In this document: positions 4,495-18,021 of the stretch, in pieces
Numbering within the stretch: the stretch's first letter is position 1
How the letters are laid out: each line of letters begins with the position of its first letter
Assembly (NCBI RefSeq): GCF_001279005.1
Contig: NZ_LGCN01000207.1
Location: 1-31,008, forward strand
Reading direction: 5' to 3'
Source: Streptomyces caelestis
GTDB lineage: Bacteria; Actinomycetota; Actinomycetes; Streptomycetales; Streptomycetaceae
Length of the DNA: 31,008 nt
The notes under the pieces: generated by a model
Database searches by the model: none
What the model saw: the letters and a program-made list of their open reading frames with translations, nothing else
Told to the model about the DNA's origin: nothing
Program-made: the position numbers and the translations under genes

Positions 4495-6207
4495 TCAGAG
4501 CCGGCGGATGTCCCACGAGTCGATGACCGTACGGGCGATCTCCCGGCCGTCCTCGGCGAAGTAGCCCTTGCCCGGGTACACGATCCAGAGCCGGTACATG
4601 TCGCCGTCCTTGTTCCGGTAGTACACGACCTGCGCCTCGCGCACCACCGCCGGACTGGTGGTCGTCGTGTAGACGATGGTGTTGGTGGCCGCCTCGCGGT
4701 CCTTGTACGTCGTCTCGCGCGGCTGCCCCTTCGGGGCCGGCGTGTCGGCGATGCCCCAGCTGTACTCGCCGTCCCTCAGGTCCTCCCAGTGCGCGAACGC
4801 CCGTTCCGAGGCCGAGGCCTCGATGTCGCCGTTCTCGTCGTCGGCCTTGATGTCGCGGTCGACCTCGACCCGCACCAGTCCGCTCGGGTCGGTGAAGGAG
4901 GCGACGGTCCCGTCCGAGTCCTCGGCCTGCTCGTCCTGCGCGAAGTCCTCGGGCACCGCGACGCCGGCGCCCACCTTGCTCCCGAGGTCGTGCTGCTTCC
5001 AGCCGTCCGGCAGCGGCCCCGCGAACGGGTCGGCGATCACCAGGTAGGCGGCCAGCGCTCCCGCGACGACCGCCGCGCCCAGCGCCGTCAGCGTCTTGCG
5101 GCCGATCCGGACGCCCTTGCCGCCGGAGCCCGGGGCGGGGAGCCGGGTCACCTGCGTGGGCTGCGGGGCGGGCGGGTTCGCGGTCGTCTCCAGTGCGGCG
5201 CGGACCTGGGCGGCGTTCGGGCGGCGCGCCGGGTCCTTCTGCAGCAGCCCGGTGATGATCTCGGCCAGCGGTCCCTGCGCGGAGGCGGGCGGCGCCGGCG
5301 TGGCGTTGAGGACCGACTGGAGGGTGGCGGGGGTGTTGCTGCGGCGGAACGGCGAGACGCCCTCCGTCGCCGCGTACAGCACCACACCGAGCGACCACAG
5401 GTCGGAGGCGGGACCGGGGCGCTGTCCCAGCACCCGTTCCGGGGCGATGTACTCGGGCGAGCCGACGAAGCCGCCGGTGTCGGTCAGATTGGTCTCGCCC
5501 TCGATCTGGGCGATGCCGAAGTCGGTGAGGACGACCCGGTCGTACCGGCCGAGCAGCACGTTGTCCGGTTTGACGTCCCGGTGCAGCACGCCCGCCGCGT
5601 GGGCGGCCTCCAGCGCGCCGAGCACCTCCAGGCCGACCCTGGCCGCCTCGCGCGCGGAGAGGGTGCCCTCGTCCTGCAGCACCTGGCCCAGCGAACGGCC
5701 CTGGACCAGTTCCATCACGATCCACGGCCGGCCGTCGACCACCGCGACGTCATGGACGTCGACCACCGCGGGGTGGTCGAGCCGGGCGGCCGCGCGGGCC
5801 TCGCGGCGCATCCGCTCGAAGGCGTTGGAGCGTTCACGTTCGGGAAGGTGGTCCGGGACGCGCGGCTCCTTGACGGCGACCTCGCGGTCGACGGTCTCGT
5901 CCTTGGCCCGCCACACCGTGCCCATGCCGCCGTGTCCGAGCTTGGCGAGCAGCCGGTAACGGCCGGCGAGCAGCCGGCCGACGCCGGGGTCGGACGCGGG
6001 CTCGGGGGACGCGGGCTCGGGGGACACCGGCCGGTGCTGCGGCCGGTCCGGCGTCCGGCCGTGCGGCTGCGGCGGAACCACCCGGGTCGGCGCCGCGTAC
6101 GGATTGCCGGGGTGCGGCACGGCCGCGGGCGGGTTCGGGTTCGGCGGTTGCAGATCGAAACTGGTGGGCTCGTCGGACCCGTGGCGGGCTCCCCCGTCGT
6201 TGCTCAT
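4495..6207 (-). CDS. Membrane Ser/Thr protein kinase, cluster member 5 (last)
   Basis: This 570-residue bitopic kinase is the last of five in transcription order. A Pro-rich cytoplasmic N-terminus of about 77 residues contains a repeated SPEPA motif. It is followed by a complete Hanks-type domain: Gly loop GHGGMG at 91-96, Lys113, HRD with Asp211, DFG at 229-231, APE at 255-257 and DLWSLG. A Pro-rich linker precedes one membrane segment at about 372-392, then an extracytoplasmic domain of about 175 residues starting LPDGWKQ. All catalytic residues are intact, so it should be active. The ATG at 6207 is close to the adjacent kinase gene. The cluster corresponds, from memory, to S. coelicolor SCO4775-SCO4779 (which includes PkaH, PkaD, PkaI and PkaJ); one-to-one names were not verified, so none is given. 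Confidence 0.92.
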   Translation of the reverse strand: MSNDGGARHGSDEPTSFDLQPPNPNPPAAVPHPGNPYAAPTRVVPPQPHGRTPDRPQHRPVSPEPASPEPASDPGVGRLLAGRYRLLAKLGHGGMGTVWRAKDETVDREVAVKEPRVPDHLPERERSNAFERMRREARAAARLDHPAVVDVHDVAVVDGRPWIVMELVQGRSLGQVLQDEGTLSAREAARVGLEVLGALEAAHAAGVLHRDVKPDNVLLGRYDRVVLTDFGIAQIEGETNLTDTGGFVGSPEYIAPERVLGQRPGPASDLWSLGVVLYAATEGVSPFRRSNTPATLQSVLNATPAPPASAQGPLAEIITGLLQKDPARRPNAAQVRAALETTANPPAPQPTQVTRLPAPGSGGKGVRIGRKTLTALGAAVVAGALAAYLVIADPFAGPLPDGWKQHDLGSKVGAGVAVPEDFAQDEQAEDSDGTVASFTDPSGLVRVEVDRDIKADDENGDIEASASERAFAHWEDLRDGEYSWGIADTPAPKGQPRETTYKDREAATNTIVYTTTTSPAVVREAQVVYYRNKDGDMYRLWIVYPGKGYFAEDGREIARTVIDSWDIRRL

Positions 6208-6287: not shown

Positions 6288-7499
6288 TTATCTCCCGTTC
6301 ACGGTGGTATGCGGCCGGATCGAGGAGTCGGCCGGCGTGGGAGGGACCGAGGGGCTCGGGGACCCGGAGGGCGACGCGCTCACGGGTGTCTCCGGCGCCG
6401 TACTCGTCGGCGTGCCTCCCCCGTCGTCGCCCCGGTCCTGCAGGAGCAGCGCCGCCGCGGACACCCCCGCTCCCGCCATGGCGGCGACCGCCAGTGCCGC
6501 GACGAGCGCACCCCTCGTGGGCTGCCGCCGGGCCGGACGCGCCTCGGGTCCCCCGCCCGCCTCCCCCCGCCGCACCGGGGGCCGCCGGCGGGGCGCGTCC
6601 CGGTCCGGGGGCAGCGGTCCGGGGGGCGCCGCCTGCGGCGTACGGCCCGTCTCCCGGAACGCCCGCAGCATCCGCTCGGCCCGGTCCGCGTCCAGCCGGC
6701 GGTCGGGGTCGCGCTCCAGCAGGCCGCGCACCACGGGCAGGATCGGTCCCGCTTCGGCGGGTGGCCGTATCTCGTCGACCACGACGGCGTGCAGGACCCC
6801 GCCGAGGGAGTCCCGCCGGAACGGCGACTCGCCGCTGAGCGCCGTGCACAGCAGCGCGCCCAGCGACCACAGGTCGGACTCCGGTCCCGTCCTGGCGCCG
6901 GACATCCGCTCGGGGGCGGTGTACTCGGGCGAGCCGACGAAGGAGCCGGTCTCGGTGAGCGTGGTGGAGCCCGACATCCGGGCGATGCCGAAGTCGGTGA
7001 GGACGACCCGGCCGGTGCCGTTCTCCAGCAGGACGTTGGCGGGTTTGAGGTCGCGGTGCAGCACACCGGCCGTGTGGGCGGCGCGCAGCGCGCCGAGCAG
7101 GTCGATCCCGATCCGCGCGGCCTCCGCGGCGTCGACCGGGCCCTGCTCGGCGACCCGGTCGGCGAGGGACGGCCCGTCGATCAGCTCCAGGACGATGTAC
7201 GGGTGTTCGTCGTCCTCGACGACGTCGTGGACGACGATGATGTGCGGGTGGCTCAACTGGGCCAGGGCGCGCGCCTCGCGCAGGGTGCGGTCCCGCTGCC
7301 GCCGGGCGTCCGCCGCGGAGAGCGTCTCGTCGAGGGGGAGTTCCTTGACGGCGACCCCCCGCCCGAGCAGTTGGTCGGTGGCCCGCCAGACCACCCCCAT
7401 GCCACCGCGTCCGAGCCTCGCCTCCAAACGGTAACGGCCCGCTATGACACGTCCGTTGGTCCTGGCGGTCGCGTTCTCGGCGTCCCCGTCGGTCCCCAT
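6288..7499 (-). CDS. Ser/Thr protein kinase without extracellular sensor domain, cluster member 4
   Basis: The protein has 403 residues from the ATG at 7499; a GTG at 7517 would add six. The kinase domain is intact: RGGMG loop, Lys52, HRD Asp150 with LKPANVLL, DFG at 169-171 and APE at 195-197. After a basic, Pro-rich linker there is one hydrophobic segment at about 330-353. Only a Ser/Thr/Pro-rich tail of about 50 residues follows. It therefore lacks the folded extracytoplasmic domain carried by the four sister genes and may depend on partners for sensing (inference). It lies between two kinase genes on the same strand with gaps of about 80 bp on each side, consistent with co-transcription. 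Confidence 0.9.
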   Translation of the reverse strand: MGTDGDAENATARTNGRVIAGRYRLEARLGRGGMGVVWRATDQLLGRGVAVKELPLDETLSAADARRQRDRTLREARALAQLSHPHIIVVHDVVEDDEHPYIVLELIDGPSLADRVAEQGPVDAAEAARIGIDLLGALRAAHTAGVLHRDLKPANVLLENGTGRVVLTDFGIARMSGSTTLTETGSFVGSPEYTAPERMSGARTGPESDLWSLGALLCTALSGESPFRRDSLGGVLHAVVVDEIRPPAEAGPILPVVRGLLERDPDRRLDADRAERMLRAFRETGRTPQAAPPGPLPPDRDAPRRRPPVRRGEAGGGPEARPARRQPTRGALVAALAVAAMAGAGVSAAALLLQDRGDDGGGTPTSTAPETPVSASPSGSPSPSVPPTPADSSIRPHTTVNGR

Positions 7500-7581
7500 G
7501 GGCCCATCATGCCCCACCGGATGTGTCGGCTCCGGTACGGCGATTCGGCCAAGCGGCGGGCAGCCGCGCCCGCCACGGGCG

Positions 7582-9228
7582 TCAGGGCTCGCGCCACCCC
7601 TTGAGCACCGTCTCGAACTGCTCGCCGGTCGTGGCCCAGTCCTCGGCCGGCCCGGACATGTAGATCGCGTACTCGACCCCGTCCCGCGAGACGTACATCT
7701 GGTCGACCGCCCGGCGCGGCCCCGGGAAGTCGGTGTCCTTGGCCAGCGCGGTCCAGCCGTACTCCAGCCGGGCGCTCTCGCGGTCCCGGTAGACGCGGCG
7801 GTCCAGGAGGATCCGCTGGTAGCCGACCAGGCGCTCCCCTATCTGCTGGTTCAGATCGCTCAGGTGCTCGTACGGGTCGTCGAAGTCGGGCGAGTCGTCG
7901 ATGGCGATGCGGATGAAGTGCTCGCCGCCGTCGGGCGTGTAGTCGACCTGCCGGGTCTCCTCGTCGAAGACCTCGCGCTCCCAGTCGTCGCCGGGCAGGG
8001 CGATGCTGAAGCCGTAGGGGTCGCTGCGGCGGACCCAGCCCTCCGGGAGGCCGCCCCGCGGCTCGGCCCGCCCCGTTCCGGTCGGGTCGGGCGTGGGGGT
8101 GGCGGTGGCCGTCGGGGACGGGCCGGCCGTGGTGCCGTCCCGGTTCCCCTGCTGGAGCATCACCGCGGTTCCCCCGCCGATGATCGCCGCCAGGGCGACG
8201 ACCAGGGCGATCACCCGCCCGCGCACCCGTCGACGGGGTGCGGCGGCAGGGTGCGCGTACAGCCGCTGGACGGCCGTGGGACCGCCCCGCGGGTGCTGCG
8301 GGTGCTGCGGGACCTGCGGGACCGCCTCCGGTCGGGTCTCGTGCGGCAGTGGCACGTGGGCGTCGACGGCCCGGGTCGGCACGTACTCCTGTGCGGCGGA
8401 CGGCCGGCGTCCCTCGGCCGCCTCGGCGAGCATCTGCTCGGCCCGGTCCGCGTCGGGGCGGACGGCCGGATCCTTGTGCAGGAGTGCGCTGATGACGGGC
8501 GCGAGCGGGCCGGCGTGCCGCGGCTCCTCGGCCTCCTCCTCGACGACCGCCTGCATGGTGGTCAGCGGTGAGGTGCGGCGGAACGGCGACCTGCCCTCCA
8601 CCGCCGTGTACAGCGTCGCGCCCAGCGCCCACAGGTCGGAGGAGGGGCCGGGGTCGTGGCCGCGGACCCGCTCGGGCGCGAGGTAGTCGACCGAGCCGAC
8701 GACCTCGCCGGTGCGGGTGATGGCCGTGTCGCCGTCGATCTGCGCGATGCCGAAGTCGGTGAGCAGCACCCGGCCGTCCCGGCCGAGGAGGACGTTGCCG
8801 GGCTTGACGTCGCGGTGCAGCACGCCGGCGGCGTGCGCGGCGCGCAGCGCGCGCAGCACCCACATGCCGATGCGCGCGGCCTCGCGGGGCTCGACGCGTT
8901 CCCGTTCCTTCACCGCGTCGGCCAGCGAGTGGCCCTCGACCAGCTCCATCACGATCCACGGCCGGCCGTCGTGCTCCAGCACGTCGTGCACCGTGACGAC
9001 GGCGGAGTGGTTGATCCGCGCGGCCGCCCGCGCCTCCGCGCGGGTGCGGGCCAGCAGCATGGCCTGTTCGCTGTCGGAGACGTAGAGCGCCGCGGTCAGT
9101 TCCTTGATGGCGACGGCCCGGTGCAGCACCTCGTCGTGGGCGCGCCACACCCGGCCCATGCCACCGCTCCCGATGGATTCGCCGAGCCGGTAGCGGCCCG
9201 CGACGAGCGAGCCCTGCATCTGATTCAC
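7582..9228 (-). CDS. Membrane Ser/Thr protein kinase, cluster member 3
   Basis: This 548-residue bitopic kinase has all catalytic motifs: SGGMG loop, Lys42, HRD Asp140 with VKPGNVLL, DFG at 158-160 and APE at 184-186. A Pro/Gln/His-rich juxtamembrane linker precedes a membrane helix at about 338-357. A Thr/Pro stalk then leads to an extracytoplasmic domain starting LPEGWVRRSDPYGFSIALP and rich in aromatic and acidic residues, similar in layout to those of the sister proteins. The GTG at 9228 is chosen because GCGGGG sits a few bases upstream and the kinase homology begins right after it. An upstream start at 9345 would add 39 residues unlike any kinase N-terminus. Its substrates are unknown; in S. 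coelicolor the equivalent cluster has been linked to phosphorylation of spore-wall synthesis proteins (recalled). Confidence 0.9.
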   Translation of the reverse strand: MNQMQGSLVAGRYRLGESIGSGGMGRVWRAHDEVLHRAVAIKELTAALYVSDSEQAMLLARTRAEARAAARINHSAVVTVHDVLEHDGRPWIVMELVEGHSLADAVKERERVEPREAARIGMWVLRALRAAHAAGVLHRDVKPGNVLLGRDGRVLLTDFGIAQIDGDTAITRTGEVVGSVDYLAPERVRGHDPGPSSDLWALGATLYTAVEGRSPFRRTSPLTTMQAVVEEEAEEPRHAGPLAPVISALLHKDPAVRPDADRAEQMLAEAAEGRRPSAAQEYVPTRAVDAHVPLPHETRPEAVPQVPQHPQHPRGGPTAVQRLYAHPAAAPRRRVRGRVIALVVALAAIIGGGTAVMLQQGNRDGTTAGPSPTATATPTPDPTGTGRAEPRGGLPEGWVRRSDPYGFSIALPGDDWEREVFDEETRQVDYTPDGGEHFIRIAIDDSPDFDDPYEHLSDLNQQIGERLVGYQRILLDRRVYRDRESARLEYGWTALAKDTDFPGPRRAVDQMYVSRDGVEYAIYMSGPAEDWATTGEQFETVLKGWREP

Positions 9229-9378
9229 GTTGCCCCGCAATGGTCTTGACAGGGCCAGCGTAAGTATCCCGGCGCGTCCTGGGAACCGAGGGGGTGCCTT
9301 GGAGACCGCACTGTGACAGTTGTCGCTGTGGGGGACGTCAGGCAACCAAAACGTCCGTGACGGCGTGGAGTCGGTGGT

Positions 9379-11928
9379 TCAGCCGCTGAACCGGTAGGTC
9401 GCCGCGGCCTGCTCGTAGATCCGTGTCACCTCGTCCCGTTCGCCCTCCGGACCGCGTACCTGCACCACGTGGTAGCGGCCGTCGATCAACGCCGCGAGGT
9501 TGCGGACGTACAGCTCGCCGCCGTCGCCGGTCCAGGTGAACTGGCCCTCGGCCATGGTCCGTCCGCCCACCTCGATGGTCTTCAGACCGGTGGAGGTGGC
9601 CCAGCTGGAGTCGCGGTAGGGCTGGAGCTCGCGCTCGTCGTCCCGCTGGTAGGCCATGGGGTCGCTGCCGTACGTCCGCGCGCTGTCCCGGCCCGGTACG
9701 ACGATGAGCTCGAAGTCACCGCTCGCGTAGACGACCTGGCCGCTGCCGTTCTTCGCGGTGCGCCGCCAGCCCTCGGCGACGGCGATCCGGAAACCCTCCG
9801 GGTCCTTGGCCAGGGTGAAGCCGTCGGCGACCTCGGGACCGGTGGTCTGCGTCTCGGCGGAGGCGGCCGACTCCTCGGGGCCGTCCTGGGAACCCTCCTC
9901 CGGCTCCGCCGGGTTCTTCCCGTCCCCCGGCTCCCCGCCGGCGTCCGACGGGCTCGGCGCGGGGCTCACCCCACCGGCGGCTCCGGTGCGGTCGACCGAA
10001 CCCGGTCCGTCCTCACCGGTCTTCGGCATGAACAGCATGGCGTACGCGATCGCCGCCGCCATGGCGAACAGCACCAGCAGGAGCAGGGTGCGGCCGAGCC
10101 GGCGCGGGGAGCCGGCGTCCTGCTTGGCCCGCTTGTGCCGTCCGTGGTGCGCGGGAAGCCCGGCCCGGCGCCTGCGCACGAGCTCGCCCCGGCGCCGTAC
10201 GACGGGCAGCCGGCCGGCGTCCACCGGCGGCGCCGTTATGACGTGCACACCCGCCTCGGGCTCGGGCGCCGACCGCACCAGGGAACGCAGCCAGCCGCTC
10301 AGCTCCTCGAAGTCGAGGCGCTCGGTGGGGTCCTGACGCAGCAGCGACTCCACGACCGGCCGCAGCGGCCCGCACTCCTCGGCGAACGCGGGCGGCTCGG
10401 CGCACACCATCTGCACCAGCTCGGCCGTCGACTCCTCCGGGTAGGGCGCGTGTCCCTGTACGGCCCGGAACAGCAGGGAGCCCAGCGCCCAGAGGTCGGT
10501 GGCGGGGCCGATCGGTGCGGCCAGCTGCCAGTTCTCGTGCACGGGGCCGGCCTGCTCCGGCGCCCACCGCTCGGTCACGGGCCCGACGACGGCCATACGT
10601 GCCTGCCGCGCCCGCTCGGCGGCCAGCGCGGTGGTCGGGCCGCGGCGCGCGGGGGCGTGTGCCACCAGGTCGTCCCAGCGTGCGGGCGGGGCGGCGGCCA
10701 CCGGTTCGAGGGCGGGGGCTTCGGGTGTTCCGGGGGCGGTGCGTCCGGTGCCGCCGCCCGTAGGGGGTGCGGCACCGTACCGGCCGGTGGCGCCCACACC
10801 GTAGGGGTCGGCTATCCGTCCCGGCGGGATCGCGGCGGCGGCCGCGCCCTCGTCCCCCGGCCGGGGGGCGTACGACGGCGGTGCGGAGCCGTCACCGTGC
10901 CGCGGGGCGGAGGCCGGGCCGCCGTCCTCGGGGGCGGGCCGGGCGCCGGGCAGGGCGGCACGGCCGTTCTGCTGGGCCTCCTGCACCCGGGCGGCGGCGC
11001 GGGTGCCCGCCCGGTACGCGGCGATCGCCCCCGCGCGGGCCGCCCGCACGTCTCCCGCGCTGTCGAGGGCCTTGGGCGCCACCACGGGCGAGAGACCGCC
11101 CGCCGTGTCCGCCCCGCCGCCGGACATCCGGCCGGCCCGCGCCTCGATGGCGGCCCGGCGCGCGGCGTCGGGGTCGGGGTCCGGGTCGGCGGTGAACCCG
11201 GGCGGCCAGGACGGGCCGCGCCCGGCGTCCGGCGCTCCCGCGGGCGCCGCCGGCCCCAGGGCCTCGAGCGCTCCCGACGTCCGCTCCGGCTCCTCGTCGT
11301 CCGGAGGGGGCACCGGGTCGTACCCGCACAGTGCCTCCTCGGCCGCGCCGACCGCGAGGCCGGTGAGCATCACCCGGCCGTCGTCGCAGACGAGCACCGT
11401 GCGCGCGGTGATGTTGCGGTGCACCCAGCCGTGGGCGTGCAGGACCCGCAGCGCGGCCAGGACGTCGGAGGCGACCTCGGCCGCCCGGTACGGGGACAGC
11501 GGCTCCTCGGCGAGCAGGGCGGCGAGCGGACGCGCGGGCACGAGTTCACTGACGATCCACAGTGACCCGCCCTCCGCGAACACGTCGAAGACCTGGTCCA
11601 GGCGCGGGTGGTCGGGGATGGCGGCCGCCGCCTGCGCGGCCTCGACCGCGCGCCGCACGACCGGGTCGGCGGGCCGCCGCGTGCCCCCGCGCGCGGGCCC
11701 GGGAACGCCCCGTCGCACACCCCCGTCACGGGCGGTGAAACCGTCGGGCAGCCCCTCCGCGTCCAGCACCTCGGCCTCGACGACCTCCGGCAACGGGACC
11801 TGTCTGACCAGGACTTCCTGCCCGCTGTAGGTGTCGAAGGCGCAGGTCTCGGTCAGTTCGTACTCGTCGGAGGGTGGCAGCGGCAGACGGTAACGGTCGG
11901 CGAGGACCCGTCCCGCGTAGTCGTCCAC
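9379..11928 (-). CDS. Transmembrane pseudokinase with ~240-residue insertion, cluster member 2
   Basis: This 849-residue protein has the kinase-fold layout but no catalytic machinery. The Gly loop is absent (PLPPSDEYELTET). The VAVK lysine is Arg42. The HRDxKPxN loop reads HRNITARTV, so Asp, Lys and Asn are all lost. DFG is replaced by GLA at 190-192. A low-complexity Ala/Pro/Gly-rich insertion of roughly residues 205-445 separates that point from an APE-like motif at 456-458 and DLWALG at 478-483, which are preserved. A membrane helix lies at about 613-634, followed by an acidic stalk and an extracytoplasmic domain (DPEGFRIAVAEGW) like those of the neighbours. The GTG at 11928 has GGAGG just upstream. 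It is probably a regulatory or scaffold partner of the active kinases (inference). The frame is intact over 2.5 kb, so it is not a decaying gene. Confidence 0.88.
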   Translation of the reverse strand: MDDYAGRVLADRYRLPLPPSDEYELTETCAFDTYSGQEVLVRQVPLPEVVEAEVLDAEGLPDGFTARDGGVRRGVPGPARGGTRRPADPVVRRAVEAAQAAAAIPDHPRLDQVFDVFAEGGSLWIVSELVPARPLAALLAEEPLSPYRAAEVASDVLAALRVLHAHGWVHRNITARTVLVCDDGRVMLTGLAVGAAEEALCGYDPVPPPDDEEPERTSGALEALGPAAPAGAPDAGRGPSWPPGFTADPDPDPDAARRAAIEARAGRMSGGGADTAGGLSPVVAPKALDSAGDVRAARAGAIAAYRAGTRAAARVQEAQQNGRAALPGARPAPEDGGPASAPRHGDGSAPPSYAPRPGDEGAAAAAIPPGRIADPYGVGATGRYGAAPPTGGGTGRTAPGTPEAPALEPVAAAPPARWDDLVAHAPARRGPTTALAAERARQARMAVVGPVTERWAPEQAGPVHENWQLAAPIGPATDLWALGSLLFRAVQGHAPYPEESTAELVQMVCAEPPAFAEECGPLRPVVESLLRQDPTERLDFEELSGWLRSLVRSAPEPEAGVHVITAPPVDAGRLPVVRRRGELVRRRRAGLPAHHGRHKRAKQDAGSPRRLGRTLLLLVLFAMAAAIAYAMLFMPKTGEDGPGSVDRTGAAGGVSPAPSPSDAGGEPGDGKNPAEPEEGSQDGPEESAASAETQTTGPEVADGFTLAKDPEGFRIAVAEGWRRTAKNGSGQVVYASGDFELIVVPGRDSARTYGSDPMAYQRDDERELQPYRDSSWATSTGLKTIEVGGRTMAEGQFTWTGDGGELYVRNLAALIDGRYHVVQVRGPEGERDEVTRIYEQAAATYRFSG

Positions 11929-12081
11929 GTTGCCTCCCCCGGCACTACGGTCGGTCGGTTCCGTTCGCCCGGCGGGCCGTTCCGGCTTCGTACGGTCCGC
12001 AAGCATTCACGATACGTGCCGGAGGCGACTCGCAGAGAGGGGATGCCACATCTGACTCCCCAATCCGCGGACCGGTCATGC

Positions 12082-14148
12082 TCAGGACTTCGGCCGGAAC
12101 GTCTTCGTCAGCGTCTGCCAGGTGTCCTTGCGCCGGTCGCTGTCCCAGTCCGCGGCCCTGGCCGTGTACATCAGCCCGTACCCGAGCCGGTCGCCGACGA
12201 CGGTCCCCCGGTCGATGGAGCGGTACGTGGTCCCGCTCTCCACATAGGTGAACTCCCAGTCGGCCGTGGACCAGCCGCGGTACTCCACCGCCTCGATGCG
12301 GATGCGCTGGTACTGGGCGCGCACCATGGCGCGTTCCTGGTTCTTCCAGTCCGCGACCGGGTCGTCCTTCGGCGTGGTCGTCCAGCCGATGAGCAGCTTC
12401 TGCCCGTCGGGGCCGGTGAACCGGTCCCCGGCGGCCCCCGTCGACCGGAACTTCCATCCTTCGGGCAGCCCGATCGAGTATCCCTGGTTGCCGTTGTACG
12501 TCTGCGCCGCCGACGTGCCGCCGTCGTCCTCGTCCTTCCCGGCCTCGTCCTCGTTCTCGTTCTCGTTCTCGTCCTCGGCCGAGCCGCCGGTGCCCGCGGT
12601 GGCGGTCGCCGTGCCCGCGCCCGGTTCCGTGCCCGTCGGCCCGGTCGCCGTGCCGTCGGTCCGGGTGCCGTCGCCTTCGTCGCCCTTGGTCTCGGCGCTC
12701 GGGGTCCCGCCGGCGACGGTCGCGCCGCCGCTGCCGCCGGCTCCCTTGCCGCCCTCGTCGTCGCCGCCGAGCGTGAGGGCCAGCACGGTGCCGAGCACGG
12801 CGAGCACCACGACCACCGCGATGATGACCAGCGTCCGCCGCGGCACCACGTCGGTGAGCGGCGCCCGCGGCACGGGCCTGGCCGGCAGGTCCGGCGGCGT
12901 CATCACCGGCCAGCCCGAACTACGGCCGCCGGCCGCCGGCTTCTGCCGCGCGGTCCCCCGCGCACCCGGCCCGGACGCCTGGACCGGCTGCGCGGCCGGG
13001 GCGGAGGGCGACGTCGCGCCGGTCCGCGTCCCGGAGGCGCCCGTCGGCGTGCTCCTGGTTCCCGCGGCCGGTTCGGCGGCCGAAGCGGCGCTGCCGCTGC
13101 CGGACTTGGTGCGGGCCGCCGCGGCGACACCGGCCGAGCCGGCCGCCGCCGCCTTCCGCACGGAACGCAGTGCGCCCCGCAGCTTCTCCCCGGCCTCCTC
13201 GCCGCGCCTGCCCCCGGTGCCCGCGCGCTCGTCCGGCTGCCCGGGCAGCGGCACGACCTTCGTCGCGTCCGCCGGTTCCCCGGCCTCCTTGGGCGCGGGC
13301 GCGTCGAGGACCGCGTTCAGCATGGCCCGGGCGCCGCTGTCGTCGAGCCGCTGGGCGGGGTCCTTGGTGAGCAGCCCGTAGATGACGTCCCTGAGCGGTC
13401 CCGCGTTCTTCGGCTCCTCGAGCGGCTCGGTCATCACCGCCGTGAGCGTCGCGATCGCGGACCCCTTGTCGTACGGCGGTGTGCCCTCCACCGCCGCGTA
13501 CAGCAGCCCGCCGAGCGACCACAGGTCGGCCGCCGGACCCGGCTTGTGCCCGCGGGCCCGTTCCGGGGAGATGTAGGAGGGGGCGCCGACCAGCATGCCG
13601 GTCGAGGTGATGGACGGGTCGCCCTCGACCTGGGCGATGCCGAAGTCCGTGAGCACGACCCGGCCGTCCTCGGCGATCAGCACGTTCGACGGCTTCACGT
13701 CGCGGTGCAGGATGCCCTCGCGGTGCGCGGAGCGCAGGACGTCCAGGATGGCGAGGCCGACCTCCGCCGCACGCTTCGGCTCCAGCAGGCCGTCCTCCCG
13801 GATGGCCTCGGCGAGCGACTTGCCCTCGACGAGCTCCATCACGATCCAGGGCCGGTCGTCCTCCTCGACCACGTCGAAGACGGTCACGGCGCTGTTGTTG
13901 CGGATCCGCGCGATCGCCTTGGCCTCGCGCAGCGTCCGCGTGATCAGCCGCCGCTTCTCCTCCTCGTCGATGTTCGTCGGGAAGCGGAGCTCCTTGACGG
14001 CGACGGTCCGCCCCAAGGTCTCGTCCTGGGCCCGCCACACCGTGCCCATGCCGCCGCGGCCGAGCACGTCTCCCAGCCGGTACCGCCCGGCGAGGAGACG
14101 TGCGCTCTTGTCCTGACGGGATGTCCCCGCCCGCTCCGCCTCCGACAT
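12082..14148 (-). CDS. Membrane Ser/Thr protein kinase, cluster member 1 (promoter-proximal)
   Basis: This is the first kinase in transcription order, 688 residues. Catalytic motifs are complete: RGGMG loop, Lys52, HRD Asp150 with VKPSNVLI and DFG at 168-170; the APE motif reads SPE at 194-196. A cytoplasmic Ala/Ser/Thr/Gly-rich linker of about 150 residues leads to a membrane helix at about 439-460. Outside the membrane there is a Gly/Thr-rich stalk with an Asn-Glu dipeptide run, then a domain starting YNGNQGYSIGLPEGWKF that ends the protein. The ATG at 14148 is supported by GAGGGG upstream; an earlier in-frame start at 14253 lacks this. The gap to the pseudokinase gene is about 150 bp. The operon promoter should lie in 14149-14300, but no clear consensus was seen. 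Confidence 0.92.
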   Translation of the reverse strand: MSEAERAGTSRQDKSARLLAGRYRLGDVLGRGGMGTVWRAQDETLGRTVAVKELRFPTNIDEEEKRRLITRTLREAKAIARIRNNSAVTVFDVVEEDDRPWIVMELVEGKSLAEAIREDGLLEPKRAAEVGLAILDVLRSAHREGILHRDVKPSNVLIAEDGRVVLTDFGIAQVEGDPSITSTGMLVGAPSYISPERARGHKPGPAADLWSLGGLLYAAVEGTPPYDKGSAIATLTAVMTEPLEEPKNAGPLRDVIYGLLTKDPAQRLDDSGARAMLNAVLDAPAPKEAGEPADATKVVPLPGQPDERAGTGGRRGEEAGEKLRGALRSVRKAAAAGSAGVAAAARTKSGSGSAASAAEPAAGTRSTPTGASGTRTGATSPSAPAAQPVQASGPGARGTARQKPAAGGRSSGWPVMTPPDLPARPVPRAPLTDVVPRRTLVIIAVVVVLAVLGTVLALTLGGDDEGGKGAGGSGGATVAGGTPSAETKGDEGDGTRTDGTATGPTGTEPGAGTATATAGTGGSAEDENENENEDEAGKDEDDGGTSAAQTYNGNQGYSIGLPEGWKFRSTGAAGDRFTGPDGQKLLIGWTTTPKDDPVADWKNQERAMVRAQYQRIRIEAVEYRGWSTADWEFTYVESGTTYRSIDRGTVVGDRLGYGLMYTARAADWDSDRRKDTWQTLTKTFRPKS

Positions 14149-14319
14149 GCGTCCCCTCATGCAACCCGCCCTGACAGAGCCTTCATTGTCCCTCACCCGA
14201 CAAGTGCTCGACGCCCAGGGTGCCTCTGGCCGCTCATCGGGCCCGGCGCGCACGGCGCCCGGGTGCCGGACGCGCTCCCCCGCCCTGCGTGATGGGCCTC
14301 CGACCTGGGAGAAGCCGGG

Positions 14320-14834: not shown

Positions 14835-16541
14835 CTACAACGGCACGATGTCCGGCGCCCCCAGCCGGGCCGCGTCCGCCGTCAGGTCGTCGGGCTGCCG
14901 CTGCGACTCCCGTTCGGCCTCCACCCGCTTCTCGTAGTGCCGCACCTCGCGCTCGATCTGGTCCTTGTCCCAGCCCAGCACCGGCGCCATCAGCTCGGCG
15001 GCCTCGCGGGCGCTGCGCGCACCCCGGTCGAACGTCTCGATCGAGATGCGGGTGCGCCGGGTCAGCACGTCGTCCAGATGCCGTGCGCCCTCGTGCGAGG
15101 CGGCGTAGGCGATCTCGGCGCGCAGATAGTCGTCGGCCGCCCCGAGCGGCTCGCCCAGCGCGGGGTCCGAGGCGATGAGGTCCAGGACCTCCTCCGCCAT
15201 CGCGCCGTACCGCTGCAGCAGGTGCTCCACCCGTACCGTGTGCAGTCCGGTGCGCGCGGCCGTGCGCGCACGCGCGTTCCACAGCGCGTGGTAGCCCTCG
15301 GCTCCCACCAGCGGCGTGTCCTCGGTGACGCAGTCGGCGACACGGACGTCGAGTCCGTGCACCGCCGCGTCCACCGCGTCCTTGGCCATGACCCGGTACG
15401 TCGTGTACTTGCCGCCCGCCACCACGACGAGCCCGGGTACGGGATGCGCCACGGTGTGCTCGCGGGACAGCTTGCTCGTGGCGTCCGACTCGCCGGCGAG
15501 CAGCGGTCGCAGACCCGCGTACACGCCCTCCACGTCGTCCCGCGTCAGCGGCACCGCGAGCACCGAGTTCACGTGCTCCAGCAGGTAGTCGATGTCCGCG
15601 CTGGACGCGGCCGGGTGCGCCTTGTCGAGGTCCCAGTCGGTGTCCGTGGTGCCCACGATCCAGTGCCTGCCCCAGGGTATGACGAACAGCACGGACTTCT
15701 CGGTGCGCAGGATGAGCCCGGTCGTGGAGTGGATGCGGTCCTTGGGGACGACCAGGTGGATGCCCTTCGAGGCCCGTACGTGGAACTGGCCGCGTTCGCC
15801 GACCATCGCCTGGGTGTCGTCGGTCCACACCCCGGTGGCGTTGACGACCTGCCTGGCCCGGATCTCGTACTCGCCGCCGCCCTCGACGTCCTGCACCCGG
15901 GCGCCGACGACGCGCTCGCCCTCGCGCAGGAACCCGGTCACCCGGGCGCCGTTGGCCGTCTTCGCGCCGTACGCCGCGGCCGTGCGTACGAGGTTCACCA
16001 CGAACCGGGCGTCGTCCATCTGGGCGTCGTAGTACTGCAGGGCCCCGACCAGCGCGTCCTTCCTCAGGCAGGGGGCCACGCGCAGTGCGTGACGGCGGGT
16101 CAGGTGACGGTGCACGGGCAGACCGCGCCCGTGTCCCCGGGCCATCGCCATGGTGTCGTACAGCGCGACGCCCGCCCCGGCGTAGAGCCGCTCCCAGCCC
16201 TTGTGCTGCAGCGGGTACAGGAACGGCACCGGGCGCACCAGGTGCGGGGCGATCCGCTCCAGCAGCAGGCCGCGCTCCTTCAGCGCCTCCCGCACGAGCA
16301 CGAAGTCGAGCATCTCCAGGTAGCGCAGACCACCGTGGATCAGCTTGCTGGACCGGCTGGACGTACCCGACGCCCAGTCACGCGCCTCGACCAGGCCCGT
16401 GGACAGGCCGCGCGTCGCGGCGTCGAGCGCCGTACCCGCGCCGACCACGCCGCCGCCCACCACCAGCACGTCCAGCTCGTGCTCGGCCATGGACGCGAGT
16501 GATCCGGCGCGCTGCGCCGGCCCCAGTGTCGCTGTCCTCAC
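14835..16541 (-). CDS. glpD: Glycerol-3-phosphate dehydrogenase (FAD, respiratory)
   Basis: This 568-residue protein oxidises sn-glycerol 3-phosphate to dihydroxyacetone phosphate and passes electrons to the quinone pool at the inner face of the membrane. The FAD-binding GGGVVGAG motif is at about 29-36, and the family signature SSKLIHGGLRYLE at 64-76. Conserved RPLL and GGKYTTYR segments and the helical C-terminal domain follow, so the length is normal. The GTG at 16541 is preferred because GGGAGG lies six bases upstream. An internal ATG at 16490 (MAEHELDVLVVGG) has no ribosome-binding site. No glpK or glpF gene is next to it here. It is divergent from the sugar-dehydrogenase homologue. Streptomyces generally carries more than one glpD, so this may not be the gyl-operon copy. 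Confidence 0.93.
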   Translation of the reverse strand: MRTATLGPAQRAGSLASMAEHELDVLVVGGGVVGAGTALDAATRGLSTGLVEARDWASGTSSRSSKLIHGGLRYLEMLDFVLVREALKERGLLLERIAPHLVRPVPFLYPLQHKGWERLYAGAGVALYDTMAMARGHGRGLPVHRHLTRRHALRVAPCLRKDALVGALQYYDAQMDDARFVVNLVRTAAAYGAKTANGARVTGFLREGERVVGARVQDVEGGGEYEIRARQVVNATGVWTDDTQAMVGERGQFHVRASKGIHLVVPKDRIHSTTGLILRTEKSVLFVIPWGRHWIVGTTDTDWDLDKAHPAASSADIDYLLEHVNSVLAVPLTRDDVEGVYAGLRPLLAGESDATSKLSREHTVAHPVPGLVVVAGGKYTTYRVMAKDAVDAAVHGLDVRVADCVTEDTPLVGAEGYHALWNARARTAARTGLHTVRVEHLLQRYGAMAEEVLDLIASDPALGEPLGAADDYLRAEIAYAASHEGARHLDDVLTRRTRISIETFDRGARSAREAAELMAPVLGWDKDQIEREVRHYEKRVEAERESQRQPDDLTADAARLGAPDIVPL

Positions 16542-16812: not shown

Positions 16813-18021
16813 ATGCCCGCAGATCTCGCCGTCATCGGACTCGGCCCGTACGGCCTGCCCCTGGCCCAGGCCGCCGTCGCCGCCGGCATCCCCACCATCG
16901 GTTACCGGACCGGCCCCGAGGCGGGCTCCCTCAGCGCCGCCGAACAGCGCCGCATGCTCGCGCGGGGTTTCCGGACGACCGCCAACGCCGCCGAGCTCGG
17001 CCGGGTGCGCACCGCGGTCATCTGCGCCCCGACGCCGCGCGGCGCGGACGGCGGACTGGATCTGTGCCAGGTGGAGACGGCCGCCCGCACCCTCGCCGCG
17101 TGGCTGCGCCCGCACACCACGGTGATCCTCGAGTCCCCCGTGCCCCCGGGGACGACGGAGGGGCCCCTGCTGCGCCTGCTCGAGTCGGTCTCGGGCCTGC
17201 GCGCGGGACACGACTTCCACCTCGCCTACTCCCCCAGCCGGGTCGACCCCGGCAACCGCGACCACACCCCCGCCAACACCCCCAAGGTCATCGGCGGCCT
17301 CACCCCCGCCTGCACCGAGTCGGCCGCCGCCTTCTACGGACGCATCACCGACAAGGTCGTACGCGCGCGCGGCCTGCGCGAGGCGGAGACCGTGCAGCTC
17401 CTGGAGACCAACTTCCGGCACGTCAACATCGCCCTCGTCAACGAGATGGCCGCCCTCTGCCACGATCTGGGCATCGACCTGTGGGACGTCCTGCGCTGCG
17501 CGGAGACCAAACCCTTCGGCTTCCAGGCGTTCCGCCCCGGCCCCGGCGTCGGCGGCCACGCGGTGCCGCAGGACCTGACCGCCCACGCGGGCCGCACCCT
17601 GCGCATGACGGAACTCGCCCAGGAGGTCAACGGCCGCATGCCGCGTTACGTCGTGCAACGCGCCGCCGCGCTCCTCAACGAGCACGGCAAGTCCGCGCGC
17701 GGCGCACGCGTGCTCCTCCTCGGCGTCACCTACAAGCCCGACCTCGCCGACCTTCAGGGATCCCCGGCCCAGGAGATCGCGGTCCGGCTGATGGAGCTGG
17801 GCGCTTCCGTCAGCTACCACGACCCGTACGTGCCGTCCTGGAACGTCCTCGACCGCCCCGTCCCCCGCGCGGACTCCCTCTACGAGGCCGCCGCCGACGC
17901 CGACCTGACGATCCTGCTCCAGCAGCACCGCACGTACGACCTCCAGGGCCTGTCGGTGAAGGCCCAGCTGATGCTGGACACGCGGGGGGCCACTCCCACG
18001 GGGGCGGCGCATCGGTTGTGA
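16813..18021 (+). CDS. UDP-glucose/GDP-mannose dehydrogenase family protein, catalytic residues replaced
   Basis: The 402-residue protein has the whole fold of UDP-N-acetylhexosamine 6-dehydrogenases. It has an N-terminal NAD site (VIGLGPYGLPLA), the dimer-forming central helix (RHVNIALVNEMA) and the C-terminal domain (GVTYKPDLADLQGSPAQEI). The catalytic positions differ from the family. The nucleophile Cys of GVGGHC is Ala (GVGGHAVPQD). The Lys and Asn of the KLLEN motif are Gln and Thr (QLLETN). The Glu of YSPERV is Ser (YSPSRV). Such a protein should not perform the two-step oxidation to a uronic acid. It may be a binding or regulatory protein or have another activity (inference). It stands alone on the plus strand without polysaccharide genes nearby. 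The ATG at 16813 has GGGAAGG about 12 bases upstream. Confidence 0.85.
   Translation: MPADLAVIGLGPYGLPLAQAAVAAGIPTIGYRTGPEAGSLSAAEQRRMLARGFRTTANAAELGRVRTAVICAPTPRGADGGLDLCQVETAARTLAAWLRPHTTVILESPVPPGTTEGPLLRLLESVSGLRAGHDFHLAYSPSRVDPGNRDHTPANTPKVIGGLTPACTESAAAFYGRITDKVVRARGLREAETVQLLETNFRHVNIALVNEMAALCHDLGIDLWDVLRCAETKPFGFQAFRPGPGVGGHAVPQDLTAHAGRTLRMTELAQEVNGRMPRYVVQRAAALLNEHGKSARGARVLLLGVTYKPDLADLQGSPAQEIAVRLMELGASVSYHDPYVPSWNVLDRPVPRADSLYEAAADADLTILLQQHRTYDLQGLSVKAQLMLDTRGATPTGAAHRL

Follow-up and report, generated by a model that had tools for sequence, protein, structure and literature searches.

The window analysed here, a stretch of 31,008 nucleotides from Streptomyces caelestis (contig NZ_LGCN01000207.1), contains on the minus strand, from 11928 to 9379, a single open frame of 849 codons plus stop that encodes an ActPs2-type transmembrane pseudokinase. 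From its sequence it is strongly supported that the protein is non-catalytic. It matches the features of ActPs2, a published family of bacterial pseudokinases with no known function (O'Boyle 2025, PMC12599244), which is thus already described in print. Because the order of the cluster equals that of SCO4775 to SCO4779 of Streptomyces coelicolor, the gene is, as judged by gene order, the orthologue of SCO4776. We consider it somewhat probable that the protein serves as a dedicated non-catalytic, membrane-bound partner of the kinase PkaH in Streptomyces spore-wall control; the partnership with PkaH is one that we infer. The gene starts with GTG, the start codon common to 79 of 80 orthologues, and a reading of 9379-11928 on the plus strand was ruled out by an internal stop in frame 1. 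All features described below lie on the minus strand unless stated otherwise.

The loss of the catalytic motifs was followed in an alignment of the kinase domains of 39 pseudokinase rows and 79 rows of the four sister kinases of the cluster, PkaH, PkaD, PkaI and PkaJ. The Gly loop GxGGMG of the sisters is SDEYEL in the pseudokinase and is gone in the 39 rows compared. Arg42 (11803-11805) replaces the β3 lysine of VAVK, and HRDxKPxN has become HRNITART (residues 170-177; 11398-11421), with Asp172 changed to Asn, Lys174 to Thr and Asn177 to Thr. At the DFG position stands GLA (190-192; 11353-11361), part of an LTGLA string that is readable either as a substitution of D-F-G by G-L-A or as a loss of Asp and Phe before GIA; several genera have DGLA. 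The N-lobe strands (residues 1-50; 11779-11928) lack a Gly-rich loop, and 49 of their 50 columns are at least 80% conserved. Residues that match those of the sisters are H170, R171, D478, W480 and R537. Retained as well are WAPEQ (455-459) in the pseudo-APE segment GPVTERWAPEQA (449-460; 10549-10584) and DLWALG in helix F (478-483; 10480-10497). In the sisters, the HRD motif, the DFG motif and the β3 Lys are intact in all rows of PkaH (79/79), PkaD (78/78) and PkaJ (62/62); PkaI has HRD and DFG in 80/80 rows, one of which lacks VAVK while two read HRDITPAN.

These losses are shared throughout the Streptomyces set, which consists of the best 80 of 523 loci found with the pseudokinase gene as the query and, with the window, comprises 81 copies. 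R42, N172, T174, T177 and GLA occur in 81/81 copies, and the losses are therefore not a matter of chance. The three residues of an active kinase (HRD Asp, DFG Asp and β3 Lys) are all missing in every copy, and WAPEQ is present in every copy. HRN is likewise kept in 129/129 database proteins, some of which may equal the loci and one of which is the window's own; three of these are odd in the motif count, with P0024 lacking the TGLA pattern, P0043 lacking the SGQEV pattern and P0102 containing a DFG string within 150-300. E96 is invariant in the 81 copies, but it is A97 that the sister alignment sets opposite their helix-C Glu, and the idea that this Glu has been retained was dropped. The spacing from R42 to E96 has a median of 53 residues in the 81 copies versus 22 in each of the four sisters, about 31 extra residues if the Glu assignment is taken as accurate to one residue in either direction. 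A kinase domain is still called by Pfam, in two stretches with 49.8 bits, and the best matches of the predicted model in the PDB are PknA/PknB entries (E from 2e-8). In the full-length AlphaFold model the kinase part is poorly folded (mean pLDDT 55.6); a model of residues 1-560 with the sisters in the alignment reached 66.9. The initial annotation, made from the letters alone, had described an intact 849-codon gene devoid of every catalytic element in which the APE and DLWALG motifs, the membrane helix and the extracytoplasmic domain persist. Alignment, hydropathy and modelling bear this out, with the minus strand as the coding strand, and the comparison of orthologues that it proposed reveals universal losses rather than local decay. 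Its five-kinase cluster needs amending, as four of the five genes encode catalytically intact kinases and the fifth the pseudokinase.

The core of the protein is, by substitution counts, under strong purifying selection. Nei-Gojobori counts against the 80 orthologues yielded dN/dS values of 0.044 for residues 1-60, 0.092 for residues 91-207 and 0.053 for residues 429-560. The insertion in the activation segment, the outer linker and the outer domain have higher values, 0.526, 0.807 and 0.358 respectively. In GC-rich genes this method gives rough figures, which are therefore meant for comparison and not as absolute values. In the 60 loci common to all five genes (sister matches of less than 55% identity or insufficient length were dropped, which left 61-79 loci per gene), the median core value was 0.068 for the pseudokinase, 0.097 for PkaH, 0.192 for PkaD, 0.200 for PkaI and 0.125 for PkaJ. 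The pseudokinase lies below PkaH in 50/60 loci, below PkaD in 60/60 and below PkaI and PkaJ in 59/60 each, in agreement with the earlier suggestion that a non-catalytic role has been selected for. The pseudo-catalytic loop has a conservation of 0.982, the third highest of 11 core regions, versus 0.861-0.959 in the sisters. For the stretch that runs from helix H to helix I the values are 0.964 in the pseudokinase and 0.821-0.883 in the sisters.

As the 80 loci were picked with the pseudokinase itself, they are unable to show that the gene is never lost, and a genome search was used instead. Among 150 genomes of the family, the first 60 residues of the pseudokinase matched 85, belonging to 10 of 17 genera. 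Of the Streptomyces genomes listed, including the window's own, 37 of 38 were matched, and the 38th carries the gene's C-terminal part where a contig ends. The 60-residue query missed diverged copies in genera g3, g4, g10, g14 and g15, which were found via glpD or PkaH; 45 genomes without a match stayed outside the later analysis, save G029 and G031, in neither of which the PkaH search found an orthologue. In 20 loci fetched from the wider family the HRD Asp is missing without exception, as it is in two plasmid copies (all have Asn), and ERW(A/S)PEQ, part of GPVTERWAPEQA, is present in 19 of the 20, the remaining one being truncated by the end of its contig, and in both plasmid copies. Their β3 position is occupied by Arg in 15 loci, Glu in three, Gln in one and His in one, and by Thr in one plasmid copy; the Glu, Gln and His of these 5/20 loci rule out a universal Arg42 pocket. 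The search that started from glpD covered 13 genomes without a match, 11 of them with glpD (locus L134 was ended by the contig), and disclosed diverged pseudokinases in the glpD-linked slot of g3, g4, g10 and g15 (5/11 loci). None has the HRD Asp; four have Asn and one, L136, has Ala (HLA). The search that started from PkaH added two pseudokinases in g14, both with Asn. The pseudokinase was thus found in 15 of 17 genera, never with the HRD Asp. No pseudokinase was found in g2 and g5, as far as the insensitive 60-residue query of their six genomes and the clusters of four of the six reach. In each of these glpD-linked clusters there are four kinases, and every one has HRD and DFG. These active kinases belong to neither the pseudokinase clade nor the PkaH clade, so that the idea of an intact orthologue in this slot of g2 and g5 was rejected. 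In the tree, the pseudokinases, plasmid copies included, form one clade with a support of 100/100 (20 rows; the g14 copies are not in the tree), separate from the cluster kinases.

Some members of the family deviate further. The copies in L136 (HLALTPDT, no APE motif seen) and L146 (HGNLVVEQ), from two genera, are more strongly degraded, still open and still located behind PkaH. Linear Streptomyces plasmids carry diverged copies (L081, L082, L083) that have kept HRN or HGN together with ERWAPEQ. For L081 and L083 the annotation shows no kinase cluster nearby (L082 is without annotation); the neighbours in L083 include genes for a lantibiotic dehydratase and a helicase.

The observation that points to a specific partner is the position of PkaH. 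A PkaH match lies directly upstream on the same strand in 80/80 Streptomyces loci, and in the wider family the next upstream kinase on the same strand is, by gene order, a best match to PkaH in 20/20 loci. A script that took the closest kinase upstream gave the same result for 18 of these 20 loci. In L121 it found no kinase and in L125 it chose a different gene, both probably owing to overlapping stop-to-stop frames; by gene order PkaH is adjacent in these two loci as well. The upstream kinases and the kinases in the first slot of the diverged genera group in a single PkaH clade with a support of 100/100 (29 rows, without L121); the L125 row, which is the different gene, falls outside it. When 13 genomes were searched with the PkaH kinase domain, orthologues scored 384-512 bits with 70-91% identity (7 genomes) and paralogues at most 310 bits. 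A PkaH orthologue was not found in the six genomes of g2 and g5, where the best PkaH-like match reached at most 304 bits versus at least 384 where PkaH exists. The 15 genera in which PkaH was found are those in which the pseudokinase was found, and every chromosomal pseudokinase copy examined follows a PkaH orthologue. PkaJ is less tied to the gene: in the 80 loci it has no match in 10 and only matches below 57.5% identity in 9 more, some of these being contig ends.

The activation segment contains a large insertion. In the window protein, 263 residues separate GLA from the Ala of APE. The median is 23 both in PkaD (77 rows) and in PkaI (80 rows), which puts the insertion at about 240 residues; the comparison is based on PkaD and PkaI, as the length was properly measurable in only one PkaH row and five PkaJ rows. 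In the 81 Streptomyces copies the distance has a median of 285 and ranges from 214 to 354. The size of the insertion had been correctly given at the outset, together with a description as low-complexity sequence that does not hold throughout. The insertion (residues 208-428; 10645-11307) is rich in Ala, Pro and Gly, yet 63 of its 221 columns, most of them in five islands, are at least 80% conserved; the outer linker has 13 such columns out of 65. The islands comprise residues 251-266 (11131-11178), with a predicted helix at 253-265; residues 292-320 (10969-11055), AARAGAIAAYRAGTRAAARVQEAQ, with a predicted helix at 291-320; residues 322-332 (10933-10965), GRAALPGARPA; residues 367-380 (10789-10830), PPGxIADPYGV; and residues 428-445 (10594-10647), RGPxTALAAERARQARM, at the end of the insertion. 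The two predicted helices are of low to moderate confidence (pLDDT about 48-63 in AARAGAIAAYRAGTRAAARVQEAQ). For residues 293-317 of the AARAGAIAAYRAGTRAAARVQEAQ island the dN/dS is 0.08. Outside Streptomyces the loop has 43-81 residues in 15 of 16 loci and 161 in L120. Of four further Streptomyces loci, L131 and L132 have a distance from GLA to APE of 410 and 455 residues, more than any other copy, L130 has one of 78, and L133 was ended by the contig. Most Streptomyces thus have a long insertion, though not all of them. In both plasmid copies that were aligned, the islands 292-320 and 367-380 are not recognisable; the edges of the insertion are, with EEALCGY in one and ERWAPEQ in both.

The initial annotation had considered, as one possible role, a phosphorylation platform for the sister kinases. 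As a core function this was rejected, given the scarcity of conserved Ser and Thr in the insertion and the short loops outside Streptomyces: within residues 208-428 only position 290 carries Ser/Thr in at least 70% of the copies, T433 and T452 lying past the edge. With only 43-81 residues in nearly all loci of other genera, the insertion can scarcely account for the ancestral function. Sites of low conservation within the insertion could be phosphorylated all the same. The other role then considered, that of an allosteric partner of a sister kinase, is in part upheld: the fixed pairing with PkaH favours a partner that would act either allosterically or as a scaffold.

Beyond the kinase part follows a membrane helix region (residues 611-635; 10024-10098), with a Kyte-Doolittle hydropathy peak of 2.46 at 614-634 in the window protein, a modelled helix at 609-633 and a hydropathy maximum of at least 2.33 in all 81 copies. 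The extracytoplasmic domain (residues 701-849; 9382-9828) has, according to the AlphaFold model, a PsbP/Mog1/LpqN fold. The model has a pLDDT of at least 90 in 14 of 15 ten-residue blocks, and the predicted structure was matched by Foldseek to PsbP (E 2e-7, TM-score by target 0.67) and to LpqN, a mycobacterial envelope protein (E 4e-5, TM-score 0.48). By hhalign the domain is related to the outer domain of PkaD (probability 95.9%), which in turn is related to those of PkaH (97.5%) and PkaJ (94.5%); a direct comparison of the pseudokinase outer domain with PkaH (0.3%) and PkaJ (0.5%) gave no match. The g11 pseudokinases stop one residue past the hydropathy window that marks the membrane helix, and in g3, g4, g14 and g15 the copies inspected stop at or shortly beyond the helix, from which it follows that the outer domain is inessential to the family.

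In the mechanism that we propose, the pseudokinase domain would dock on PkaH, or on PkaH and cell-wall substrates, and the activity or location of PkaH would be set through binding and not through phosphorylation. The islands of the insertion may provide, in most Streptomyces, extra cytoplasmic docking segments, and the outer domain, of the same type as those of the sisters, would face the envelope. In S. coelicolor, an extra copy of SCO4776 results in aberrant, vancomycin-sensitive spores, which was read as "overbalancing phosphorylation" (Ladwig 2015, PMC4416010). An extra copy might instead upset the stoichiometry of the complex, and the reported sporulation defect would then call for no added kinase activity. 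In a bolder form, which we advance tentatively and by analogy, PkaH and the ActPs2 pseudokinase would constitute an obligate pair of receptor kinase and pseudokinase. The live kinase would be set allosterically by its dead partner, and the pair would time spore-wall synthesis. HER3 sets HER2 allosterically in animals. If the obligate pair is real, the effect ascribed in 2015 to phosphorylation would be one of partner stoichiometry.

Several points weigh against the proposed partnership with PkaH. In genome G022 (g8), the 8 kb that lie between PkaH and the contig end contain no pseudokinase, and in the annotated records the plasmid copies have no PkaH neighbour. Adjacent genes co-occur in part because they are inherited together. 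Helix C is not better conserved than in the sisters (0.920 vs 0.896-0.998). Second copies of the active sisters give the same phenotype as a second copy of SCO4776 (PMC4416010), which makes that phenotype unspecific. According to the same paper, the cluster genes are transcribed separately, with pkaH RNA undetected and SCO4776 constitutive; it also mentions microarray data that disagree on the pkaH transcript. A deletion of SCO4776 as a single gene is not reported in the available portions of that text. The identity with SCO4776 is based on gene order, and the S. coelicolor protein was not named among the best 120 of 2872 database matches obtained with the S. marokkonensis copy as the query.

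Among the alternatives, a scaffold that assembles a spore-wall complex by binding several cluster kinases together with Mre and PBP proteins, an assembly job like that of EssB/YukC, is in our view rather unlikely. It would suit the membrane topology and the insertion islands, the second-copy phenotype of SCO4776 resembles that of the sisters, and kinases of this kind do associate, as PkaI interacts with PkaA and PkaD (PMC4416010); the gene, however, tracks PkaH in all loci of both sets and not PkaJ, which lacks a match in 10 of 80. We give less credence still, and regard as quite unlikely, a repurposed active site whose cleft binds a nucleotide or another ligand via Arg42, Asn172 and Thr174/Thr177, so that the protein would be a ligand sensor or an unusual enzyme comparable to the AMPylase SelO. 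The high conservation of the pseudo-catalytic loop is in line with such a site, as is an AlphaFold3 model of an ActPs2 member with ATP, bound through R42 and R177 with an ipTM of 0.87 (PMC12599244). Against it stand the replacement of Arg42 in a quarter of the wider-family loci (5/20) and in one plasmid copy, the further degraded loops HLALTPDT and HGNLVVEQ of two genera, and the absence of the Gly loop from the 39 rows compared.

A decoy receptor, whose PsbP/LpqN-type outer domain would compete with the sister kinases for a ligand in the envelope, is very unlikely. The chain of outer-domain similarities through PkaD and the fold matches to PsbP and LpqN would be expected of a decoy; its outer domain, though, is dispensable in five genera, is not aligned directly with those of PkaH and PkaJ and evolves faster than the core. 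There remains a decaying gene on its way to being lost, to which the loss of all catalytic motifs, the presence of PkaH alone in G022 and short open frames at the match in a few genomes (312 aa in G086, 565 in G133) might be attributed, and which we regard as having a negligible chance of being true. For Streptomyces it is refuted by the near-universal presence of the gene, by a frame open over its full length in 81/81 loci and by losses that are universal in genes whose core dN/dS is below that of four active neighbours. We retain the reading of a dedicated PkaH partner. The link between ActPs2 and SCO4776 moves a family with no known function into a genetically tractable sporulation cluster for which a phenotype, strains and an assay by co-expression in E. 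coli exist. This makes its function testable at once, and the fixed pairing names PkaH as the first partner to test. The published result, ascribed to unbalanced kinase activity, includes one gene expected to be inactive as a kinase and is therefore due for reinterpretation.

The genes on the minus strand are arranged in the order glpD, PkaH, pseudokinase, PkaD, PkaI, PkaJ. The orthologue of PkaH (SCO4775; 12082-14253, open reading frame (ORF) as listed), an intact kinase and the proposed partner, adjoins the pseudokinase upstream. The other intact kinases are the orthologues of PkaD (SCO4777; 7582-9345, ORF as listed, the start probably being a GTG near 9228), PkaI (SCO4778; 6288-7517), with a short tail beyond its membrane helix, and PkaJ (SCO4779; 4495-6207). 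A gene of the glycerol-3-phosphate dehydrogenase type, glpD (14835-16541), serves as the syntenic anchor, and between it and an IMPDH gene lies a UDP-glucose/GDP-mannose dehydrogenase gene on the plus strand (16813-18021). The spacer 5' of the pseudokinase gene has 153 bases here and in 19 loci and 124-400 across the loci measured. About 75-91 bases 5' of the start codon it contains a strongly conserved element, GGCACGTATCGTGAATG (GGCACGTATCGT; 12004-12020), and parts of the leader 3' of GGCACGTATCGT are also strongly conserved in the Streptomyces loci. GGCACGTATCGT has a single match in the window at up to three mismatches (0.11 expected). Possibly, GGCACGTATCGTGAATG is a promoter of the pseudokinase gene's own. 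On the short contig of L060 the order is a PkaD-like piece, PkaI, PkaH, pseudokinase and a PkaD piece, either a duplication or an assembly fault. The genome that contains the window encodes two more kinase-like ORFs without HRD and DFG, both on the minus strand. One, in L108 (G000:C197:53000-57000), reads THGELSPG and VTGYGLAG at these positions, has kept ASPEQ and DLWALG and is another pseudokinase. The other, in L113 (G000:C227:110500-114500), reads HLRLNPNAV and IRGLAVN, has a hydrophobic stretch and an outer part, and is presumably akin to the MviN-associated type.

The cluster was described in S. coelicolor as SCO4775 (pkaH), SCO4776, SCO4777 (pkaD), SCO4778 (pkaI) and SCO4779 (pkaJ), in the order found in the window and with intergenic distances of 93-173 (PMC4416010). 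There SCO4776 is counted among five kinases, whereas the window orthologue is, by its sequence, non-catalytic. The SCO4776 protein has been detected by proteomics, and PkaH is reported to belong to the spore-wall complex and to phosphorylate MreC (PMC9739823). With the ActPs2 members described in PMC12599244 the window protein shares the replacement of the β3 Lys by Arg (R42 there as well), HRN in place of HRD, a disrupted DFG and a membrane helix past the kinase domain. A deletion of DFG is reported for most ActPs2 members and LTGLA is compatible with a substitution or a deletion; about 32 extra residues are given for the stretch between β3 and helix C, against about 31 here, and about 250 extra residues for the activation loop, against about 240 here, which does not apply to 15 of 16 loci of other genera nor to L130. 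The insertion is called disordered there and of unclear significance. ActPs2 is placed as a branch of the Act2 kinase family; the trees made here show the pseudokinases as a single clade set off from the kinases of the cluster. The accessible parts of PMC12599244 offer neither a function nor a gene neighbourhood for ActPs2 and do not contain the word Streptomyces; the link between ActPs2 and SCO4776 was found neither in these parts, nor in those of PMC4416010, nor in the open literature searched, outside of which most subscription papers lie. What goes beyond the ActPs2 account, and is new here, is the spread over 15 of 17 genera without the HRD Asp, the fixed PkaH neighbour, the conserved islands, the existence of relatives whose insertion is short or whose β3 residue is not Arg, and the PsbP/Mog1/LpqN-type outer domain. 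The family is said to have been first named in an earlier evolutionary survey.

The pseudokinase domain of MviN (ActPs3) is likewise actinobacterial and tied to cell-wall synthesis (PMC12599244). The activation loop of ActPs3 has a deletion, whereas that of the window protein is about 240 residues longer and its layout is that of a receptor kinase, which sets it apart from ActPs3. The MviN pseudokinase domain belongs to a protein that crosses the membrane several times. EssB/YukC of type VII secretion is, like the window protein, a single-pass membrane pseudokinase with lost motifs and functions as a scaffold (PMC12599244); its activation loop is shortened, that of the window protein is not. 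No secretion genes were noticed among the ORFs scanned in the window. With the mycobacterial PknA and PknB the protein shares the fold of the kinase domain and the receptor-kinase layout, but those are active enzymes. The outer part of PknB consists of PASTA domains.

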